A stretch of 64,000 nt of DNA, taken from positions 4,424,850 through 4,488,849 of the forward strand of contig NZ_JACBZA010000001.1 of the NCBI RefSeq assembly GCF_013408535.1. Reading direction: 5' to 3'. The DNA is from Actinopolymorpha cephalotaxi. Its GTDB lineage: Bacteria > Actinomycetota > Actinomycetes > Propionibacteriales > Actinopolymorphaceae. Positions 21,586 to 23,144 of the stretch are shown here, piece by piece. The translations under genes and the position numbers were made by a program. How positions within the stretch are numbered: the stretch's first letter is position 1; each line of letters starts with the position of its first letter. The notes beneath the pieces are model-generated. The model made no database searches. It had not been told where the DNA came from and saw nothing but the letters and a program-made list of their open reading frames with translations.

Positions 21586-21765
21586 GAGCTCGGGAGTTGT
21601 GTCGTGCCGTCAACCTGCGGTTGGCGGTCGTGGTGGACTGGAAAGATGGAGGGGGAACCGGACTCCGGTGGGGGCACCTTCTGCACCACCGCAAGCGTGC
21701 CTTGTCACCTGCTCGCCTTTGCCCGTACGAAGCGCATGCCCGCGAGGGCGGCCGAGGAGGAAGCG

Positions 21766-22092
21766 ATGACCGCCACTGCTCACGCCCGGGCCGAGGAGCA
21801 CGAGCACCACACCCACGGGCCCGGCTGCGGACACGAGTCCGTGGTGCACAACGACCACGTCGACTATTTCCACGGCGACCACGCGCATCGCGAACATGCC
21901 GGACACTACGACGAGTGCACGACCTGCCAGTGCGGCAACTGTCAGGATGTGTGCGCCCGTTGCCGCTGTGCGGACTGCACCTGCCCAAGCTGCAACCACG
22001 GCACCTGCTCGTGCCGGAACTGCGGCGGTGAGAGCTGCGCCAACTGCGCCTGTGCCGACTGCGACTGTCCGACCTGCTCACACGCGGGCTGA
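21766..22092 (+). CDS. His-rich N-terminus fused to metallothionein-like Cys-rich domain, probable metal-binding protein
   Basis: 108 residues with two clearly different halves. Residues 1-48 are His/Asp-rich (HTHGPGCGHESVVHNDHVDY, then a HGDHAHREHAGHYD run), a pattern I know from small actinobacterial and proteobacterial proteins associated with zinc. Residues 49-108 carry 19 cysteines in CxC, CxxC and CxCxxC spacings, with two near-copies (CARCRCADCTCPSC and CANCACADCDCPTC). That density and spacing are those of a metallothionein. ATG 21766 is chosen for the GAGGAGGAAG ribosome site just upstream; the frame back to 21604 is not supported. No membrane segment or signal peptide: likely cytosolic metal storage or buffering. 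No Zur- or Cmt-like operator was recognised upstream. Convergent with a sigma factor gene. Confidence 0.8.
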   Translation: MTATAHARAEEHEHHTHGPGCGHESVVHNDHVDYFHGDHAHREHAGHYDECTTCQCGNCQDVCARCRCADCTCPSCNHGTCSCRNCGGESCANCACADCDCPTCSHAG

Positions 22093-22151: not shown

Positions 22152-23144
22152 TCAGACGGTGAGCGTGGCCTCGATACCGAACACAGGCACGAGACGTGGC
22201 TCGTTGAAGGCCGTGATCCGGGCGATCCGAGCATCGATCAACGTCAGAACCTGCACACCATAAGCCGCGTACACATCGCCGCCCACCTGCTTGTGGACCA
22301 CAAGGGCGGGCTGCCCGTTGGCCCGGGTGGGCACCATCCGCCACTGGCCGCCGCCCAGGACCCGACTGCTCAGAAACCCGATGACGGCCGCCCGCCCGGT
22401 GAACCAGGTCGGGATCGGCGGCATCTCCATCTCCACATCGGCCCTCACCAGCCCCACCAGCGCGGCGGCGTCGGCCCGGGTGAACGCGTCGACATAACGG
22501 TCGAGCAGCTCCCGGATGGCCTTCTCGTCAGGCTCGGCCAACTCGTCCTCGACCGGCCCGGCCTCGGCCAGGCGGGCCCGTGCCCGACGCAGCGCACTGT
22601 CGACAGCCGCGGTGGTCGTGTCGAGAATCTCGGCGACCTCGACCGTCCGGAAGGCGAGCACGTCACGCAAAGTCAGCACGGCCCGCTGCCGTGCACTAAG
22701 CAGCTGGAGCGCGGCGATGAATGCCAGCCGCACTCCGCTCCGCCCGGACACGACGGCAGCCGGATCTCCGGTGCCGAACAGTGAGTCCGGTGCCGGCTCG
22801 AGCCACGGCACCGACGGATCTCGGTCGGCCACGGCCACCCGCGGATCGTCCGAGGGCGCGCCCAGCCCTGACGGAAGCGGCCGCCGGGAGCGCGTTTCCA
22901 GGGCCGTGAGGCAGGTCGTGGTCGCGATCTTGTACAACCACCGCCGCACCGAGGATCGCCCCTCGAACCGCCCGTACCCTCGCCAGGCACGCAGATAGGT
23001 CTCCTGCACCAGGTCCTCGGCGTCGTGGATGGACCCGAGAATCCGGTAGCAGTGCGCGAGTAGCTCGGGCCGGTAGGGTTCGGCCACAGTGGCGAAGTCG
23101 GCGTGGGACGGCATCGCGGCCACTCCCCGTGGTGCGGATTCCAT
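22152..23144 (-). CDS. ECF RNA polymerase sigma factor with SnoaL-like C-terminal domain (SigG/ECF56-like)
   Basis: 330 residues. Sigma-70 region 2 spans about 15-85 (LLAHCYRILGSIHDAEDLVQETYLRAWRG..., the -10 recognition and core-binding region) and region 4 about 165-215 (LLSARQRAVLTLRDVLAFRT ... TTTAAVDSALRRARARL, the -35 recognition helix). The last about 115 residues form a SnoaL-like fold (LLDRYVDAFTRADAAALVGL ... WFTGRAAVIGFL), which in ECF41/ECF56-type factors regulates activity in place of an anti-sigma factor. ATG 23144 lies 11 bases after the stop of the SDR gene, so the two are probably one transcript. A second ATG ten codons in (before PSHADF) is an alternative start. Confidence 0.9.
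   Translation of the reverse strand: MESAPRGVAAMPSHADFATVAEPYRPELLAHCYRILGSIHDAEDLVQETYLRAWRGYGRFEGRSSVRRWLYKIATTTCLTALETRSRRPLPSGLGAPSDDPRVAVADRDPSVPWLEPAPDSLFGTGDPAAVVSGRSGVRLAFIAALQLLSARQRAVLTLRDVLAFRTVEVAEILDTTTAAVDSALRRARARLAEAGPVEDELAEPDEKAIRELLDRYVDAFTRADAAALVGLVRADVEMEMPPIPTWFTGRAAVIGFLSSRVLGGGQWRMVPTRANGQPALVVHKQVGGDVYAAYGVQVLTLIDARIARITAFNEPRLVPVFGIEATLTV

Follow-up and report, generated by a model that had tools for sequence, protein, structure and literature searches.

A probable zinc-buffering, metallothionein-like protein of Actinopolymorpha cephalotaxi with a histidine-rich head related by sequence to the tail of zinc-importer permeases

A gene for a protein with a histidine-rich head and a cysteine-rich tail

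The window analysed here is a stretch of 64,000 nucleotides from the genome of A. cephalotaxi (G000), which consists of one contig of 6.86 Mb. It contains a gene for a protein of 108 amino acids (P0001; Table 1) with 20 cysteines and 15 histidines. Thirteen histidines and one cysteine are located in residues 1-48, and 19 cysteines and two histidines in the last 60 residues; these counts bear out the bipartite architecture of a preliminary description of this DNA, which gave about 12 histidines for the first 48 residues and 19 cysteines for the last 60. The tail, rich in CxC and CxxC motifs, has the metallothionein-like look that was ascribed to it, and with 19 cysteines in its last 60 residues the protein is as small and cysteine-rich as is expected of a prokaryotic metallothionein of the SmtA/BmtA type. 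The two near-copies of CxxCxCxxCxCxxC that had been noticed are C63-C76 and C91-C104, and each lies in a block of nine cysteines and a closing histidine. Alignment of the two blocks (residues 54-78 and 81-106) was better than that of 5000 of 5000 full shuffles and of 4999 of 5000 shuffles that kept the cysteine positions. An alternative longer frame opens at GTG 21604; relatives start at or near the ATG instead.

Table 1. Features at and around the P0001 gene (window positions)
Feature	Coordinates	Strand	Remarks
Gene for 108-aa histidine- and cysteine-rich protein (P0001)	21766..22092	+	open frame including stop codon; A. rutila orthologue; purifying selection
Histidine-rich module, residues 1-50	21766..21915	+	by sequence, same module as C-terminal tail of ZnuB permeases
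Cysteine-rich metallothionein-like tail, residues 51-106	21916..22083	+	19 Cys and 2 His
Cys block 1, residues 54-78	21925..21999	+	Cys9His
Cys block 2, residues 81-106	22006..22083	+	Cys9His
Ribosome-site-like AGGAGGA, just 5' of ATG	21755..21761	+	read from sequence; conserved in A. rutila
Upstream region of the gene	21586..21765	+	partly conserved in A. rutila (136/175 aligned bases)
Inverted repeat GTCAACC-TGC-GGTTGGC	21609-21625		within upstream region; not locus-specific
Sigma-70-family factor gene with C-terminal SnoaL-like domain	22152..23144	-	beside the P0001 gene; no counterpart at A. rutila locus

P0001 matched no Pfam or NCBIfam family, metallothionein profiles included, up to E 10. 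Comparison of 29 family members with Pfam gave only weak unrelated matches, the best being a plant zinc finger in one member (E 0.015), and comparison of the same members with NCBIfam gave a best match of E 0.26. A sequence and profile search of the PDB (best match E 0.18) found no solved structure that fits, and the AlphaFold model of P0001 has a mean pLDDT of 44.9, a confidence too low for use.

P0001 and its A. rutila orthologue share 88% identity along their entire length, and a simple Nei-Gojobori count gives a dN/dS of 0.10 between the two genes. All 35 cysteine and histidine sites are kept, with none of the 13 replacements falling on them (hypergeometric P = 0.004). Because of the full-length orthologue, the low dN/dS, the untouched cysteine and histidine sites and the ribosome-site-like sequence before the start codon, the window gene is a real gene under purifying selection, which rules out a one-off or chance frame. 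The A. rutila locus shares the upstream methyltransferase gene (91%) and has counterparts of LuxR-type, subtilase-like, HNH-type and binding-protein genes; the sigma-factor and SDR genes of the window have no match there.

Distribution and block number

A profile of the two orthologues (window and A. rutila) was searched against 391 genomes of the order, and the counts obtained are lower bounds. The head followed by two cysteine blocks is present in at least 26 of the 391 genomes, A. cephalotaxi included (block 1 is shortened in L045), and in at least seven of these 26 the profile also matches at a second place. One-block versions of 79-81 amino acids occur in at least three genomes (L046-L048), and one further match is interrupted by a contig end; together these matches, at least 30, span seven genera and three families. 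A phylum-wide search of 396 genomes at E 1e-12 gave 18 matches, of which two are full-length (G000, G003), 15 are head only by reading, and one is a short one-block form from outside the class (G429, L097). A profile of the tail, with matches to E 1e-6 considered, matched 13 of 394 genomes of the class, six of them outside the order. The head is present in all 13 of these tail-positive genomes, and for matches down to that threshold a free-standing tail family was rejected.

Since full-length relatives occur in at least 26 of the 391 genomes of the order, and others outside it, the protein is by sequence one conserved family, with no fitting family in Pfam, NCBIfam or the PDB. The joining of both halves, thought singular in the preliminary description, is thus a family trait; the rival prospect raised there, a long-known conserved single family, holds for the conserved single family but not for long-known, as no description of the protein, or of a module common to ZnuB tails and metallothioneins, was found in the open-licence literature.

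The one-block versions (L046-L048, L097) agree with the earlier proposal that the tail grew by repetition. Within 25 two-block proteins, the mean identity between blocks is 65%, compared with 84-92% in four proteins of a single genus (L023, L025, L039, L043), which suggests recent duplication or homogenisation of the blocks in that genus. L046, from the same genus, has a single block; in combination with the near-identical blocks, this suggests that blocks have been gained and lost there through repeat recombination. A tree of the blocks, built from 26 columns, has five well-supported inner branches out of 48.

The head is related to the tail of ZnuB

Searches with the profile of the two orthologues found the head in the C-terminal tails of the zinc-importer permease ZnuB, the tail profile found the tail joined to the head in all 13 genomes matched, and the expected relationship of the head to other histidine-rich proteins was confirmed by sequence matches. 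In A. cephalotaxi itself, residues 6-54 of P0001 are 56% identical (E 1e-10) to the C-terminal end of ZnuB, a permease that matches PF00950 (E 5e-61) and is followed by a Zur-like frame. Twenty head-only matches from the order-wide list, all with open frames of at least 319 amino acids, were fetched, and all 20 proved to be ZnuB homologues that carry the module in frame as their C-terminal end, a figure that describes the nature of long-frame matches and not their share of all head matches, the list including short stand-alone histidine-rich proteins as well. A Zur homologue is present within the fetched stretch at 10 of the 20 loci. The module ends with HYDEH or HYDEC both in ZnuB tails and in the stand-alone histidine-rich proteins of Actinomycetota, and on sequence grounds the head of P0001 and the C-terminal tail of ZnuB are the same module.

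The ZnuB tails and stand-alone proteins differ from P0001 in having no cysteine-rich tail, which in the stand-alone proteins is often replaced by a second histidine-rich module. Of eight stand-alone loci examined, four (L077, L079, L081, L082) have an ArsR gene upstream of the head, an arrangement also found in relatives of P0001, and one (L075) has it just downstream; znuABC-like genes, assigned by reading and clustering, are beside two (L076, L079).

Mobile spread of the fused protein was considered and rejected: three plasmid and two phage-labelled records match the head only, and none covers most of the protein. A 51-amino-acid histidine-rich module alone is encoded on a Citricoccus plasmid (NZ_CP133844.1; L147:3450-3605), where it is annotated as 'zinc transporter permease', a label that was probably carried over from ZnuB tails. 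MT837699.1 and MT836058.1 ('Bacteriophage sp.', human faeces) encode the module only; one inspected record is marked UNVERIFIED, and the two may be bacterial DNA.

Linkage to an SmtB-type repressor and to zinc-uptake genes

Of the 32 intact fused loci examined, 28 have an ArsR/SmtB-type gene that immediately precedes the fused gene in the same orientation; it overlaps the start codon of the fused gene in 24 and is separated from it by 11, 16, 113 and 119 bases in the other four. The loci that have no such gene are those of the window, A. rutila, L069 and L133. Two of the upstream repressors were tested against Pfam and both match PF01022, and all 28 contain the motif DxHx10Hx2E. Excerpts of PMC8790569 give this motif as the mark of SmtB-type sensors with an alpha5 site, and they also describe a metallothionein under control of such a repressor. 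The cyanobacterial pairs SmtA/SmtB and NmtA/AzuR are alike in combining a small cysteine-rich protein with an ArsR-family repressor that carries the same motif, as far as excerpts of PMC8790569 describe them; the P0001 family differs in having no Pfam metallothionein match, a histidine-rich module in front, two cysteine blocks, and, in relatives, a repressor gene that precedes it in the same orientation and mostly overlaps its start codon.

The alpha5 motif bears on whether P0001 is instead a metallothionein that chiefly detoxifies Cd(II) or other thiophilic metals, with zinc as no more than a by-product. Such a role would suit a tail rich in CxC and CxxC thiolates, and in Anabaena a metallothionein linked with protection against cadmium is under the control of an alpha5 sensor (excerpts of PMC8790569); the role is nevertheless unlikely, because excerpts of the same source associate alpha3N sites with Cd and Pb and alpha5 sites with Zn, Cu, Co and Ni, the first 60 residues, examined in all 28 linked repressors, contain no alpha3N-type CxC, and the linkage to znu and zur genes and the relation to ZnuB tails are specific to zinc. 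That linkage is found at two loci, L128 with the gene order znuA-znuC-znuB-arsR-gene-zur and a CobW_C-domain gene next to znuA, and L133 with the order znuA-znuC-znuB-gene-zur.

Other genes were observed in the surroundings of the fused gene. L128 (G975) has two zinc-uptake-like gene sets, the second by reading only, and two FUR-family-like genes around it. A COG0523/CobW-like GTPase gene (by reading) is close to the arsR-fused pair in L059, L060 and L063, which represent two genera. By reading and clustering, copA- and copZ-like genes are located a few kilobases from the pair at four loci of one genus (L052, L064, L068, L071), with a csoR-like gene also a few kilobases away in L052, L064 and L071 and not in L068.

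These copper genes, together with CxC and CxxC thiolates that suit Cu(I), would fit a protein that buffers copper and resembles MymT, the copper metallothionein of mycobacteria. This reading is highly improbable, given that the copper genes occur in one genus only, with other genes between them and the operon, and that the direct neighbours of the fused gene are alpha5 ArsR, znu and zur genes. The mycobacterial protein is comparable as an actinobacterial cysteine-rich metal-binding protein, by description only (excerpts of PMC10612145). Across relatives, the genetic context favours zinc.

Operator-like elements in relatives and the orphan copy in the window

Upstream of arsR, a conserved promoter- and operator-like element (TTGACATGC...ATATAA...GCATG) spans the likely promoter and extends as far as the start codon. 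Of 22 fused arsR loci, 18 yielded the element; nine of 27 upstream regions gave no site, four of these being fused loci of one genus. The clearest palindrome is that of L060, and palindromicity is at or below 0.05 for eight of the 18 extracted sites, with a mean of 9.4 versus 7.3 for shuffles. When 18 genomes were scanned with the operator pattern, 11 matches were found in 10 of them, nine being source sites or their like upstream of arsR and the remaining two lying elsewhere with two mismatches each; a reversed control gave none, and five arsR-linked genomes among the 18 had no match. Zur-like boxes with at most one mismatch are present upstream of arsR at two of 22 fused loci, and a perfect Zur-like box is present upstream of znuA in L133, with none in L128.

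The copies of the window and of A. rutila have no ArsR-family neighbour and no match to the operator pattern, so that regulation is shown by relatives only. Upstream of the window gene, a scan allowing one mismatch found no Zur-like box, and a simple, insensitive scan found no sigma-70-like promoter. An ArsR-linked or Zur-like operator, of the kinds that had been suggested for the region upstream of the gene, was thus not found at the window copy, but an operator-like element does stand upstream of arsR in relatives. The inverted repeat of the upstream region (Table 1) was set aside as a candidate for a dedicated operator, as G000 contains 24 sites with at most two mismatches, versus three for the reversed control. 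The closest ArsR matches in the genome have at most 45% identity, and a single one of the 12 that were inspected, L091, carries a motif of alpha5-like form that ends in histidine, D-x-H-x10-H-x2-H. Anabaena AzuR controls the metallothionein gene nmtA from a remote locus (excerpts of PMC8790569), and it is a speculation from this analogy that the L091 repressor might act on the window gene from a distance.

The absence of an arsR neighbour, operator and detectable promoter could mean that the gene has become a relict in this lineage, with both its regulator and its role lost. This is very unlikely in view of the dN/dS of 0.10, the cysteine and histidine sites free of replacements, the 136 of 175 upstream bases conserved with A. 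rutila, the remote action of AzuR (excerpts of PMC8790569) and the presence of L091. Judged by sequence, the gene in the lineage of A. cephalotaxi and A. rutila is instead an orphan that keeps all of its potential ligands.

Proposed function

The linkage to arsR, the alpha5 motif, the homology of the head to the ZnuB tail and the znu and zur linkage at two loci together make it likely that P0001 is a metallothionein-like protein that buffers zinc, the counterpart in actinobacteria of smtB-smtA, set apart by its importer-tail module. In the predicted mechanism, with zinc as the ligand, the two Cys9His blocks of the tail would most likely form two zinc-thiolate clusters. The Pseudomonas metallothionein PflQ2MT likewise combines a cysteine-rich domain with added histidine, and its Zn3 cluster has the Cys9His ligand set found in each block of P0001 (excerpts of PMC7387436); from this analogy, the tail can reasonably be guessed to bind about six Zn. 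The likeness rests on the ligand set by description, P0001 having no profile match in the PDB search, and in excerpts of PMC7387436 PflQ2MT differs in having one cysteine-rich domain instead of two and, as its extra part, a disordered histidine-rich C-terminal tail instead of a ZnuB-related N-terminal module.

As the head corresponds to the tail of an importer, it would probably provide weaker, fast-exchanging zinc sites, from which the metal would then pass to the tighter cysteine clusters. In relatives that have the arsR-gene operon, with the fused gene second, excess zinc would release the alpha5 repressor and more buffer would be made. The arsR-linked majority would thus make a zinc buffer at high zinc, and at the two znu-linked loci (L128, L133) the buffer would be made together with the importer.

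A further step, doubtful at present, is that the histidine-rich module is a zinc-handover domain, with the ZnuB tail passing incoming zinc directly to the detached copy of the module in the metallothionein. If this were true, import and storage of zinc would form a physically coupled system in which an SmtB sensor controls the store.

In the excerpted text of PMC10612145, the copper metallothionein of M. tuberculosis is the only metallothionein of Actinomycetota mentioned. P0001 and its relatives add to this phylum a conserved, zinc-linked, metallothionein-like family that has no Pfam or NCBIfam profile, and they show one module that is common to an importer tail, stand-alone histidine-rich proteins and a metallothionein-like protein. 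This makes testable the question of whether imported zinc may be handed through shared histidine-rich modules to a buffer.
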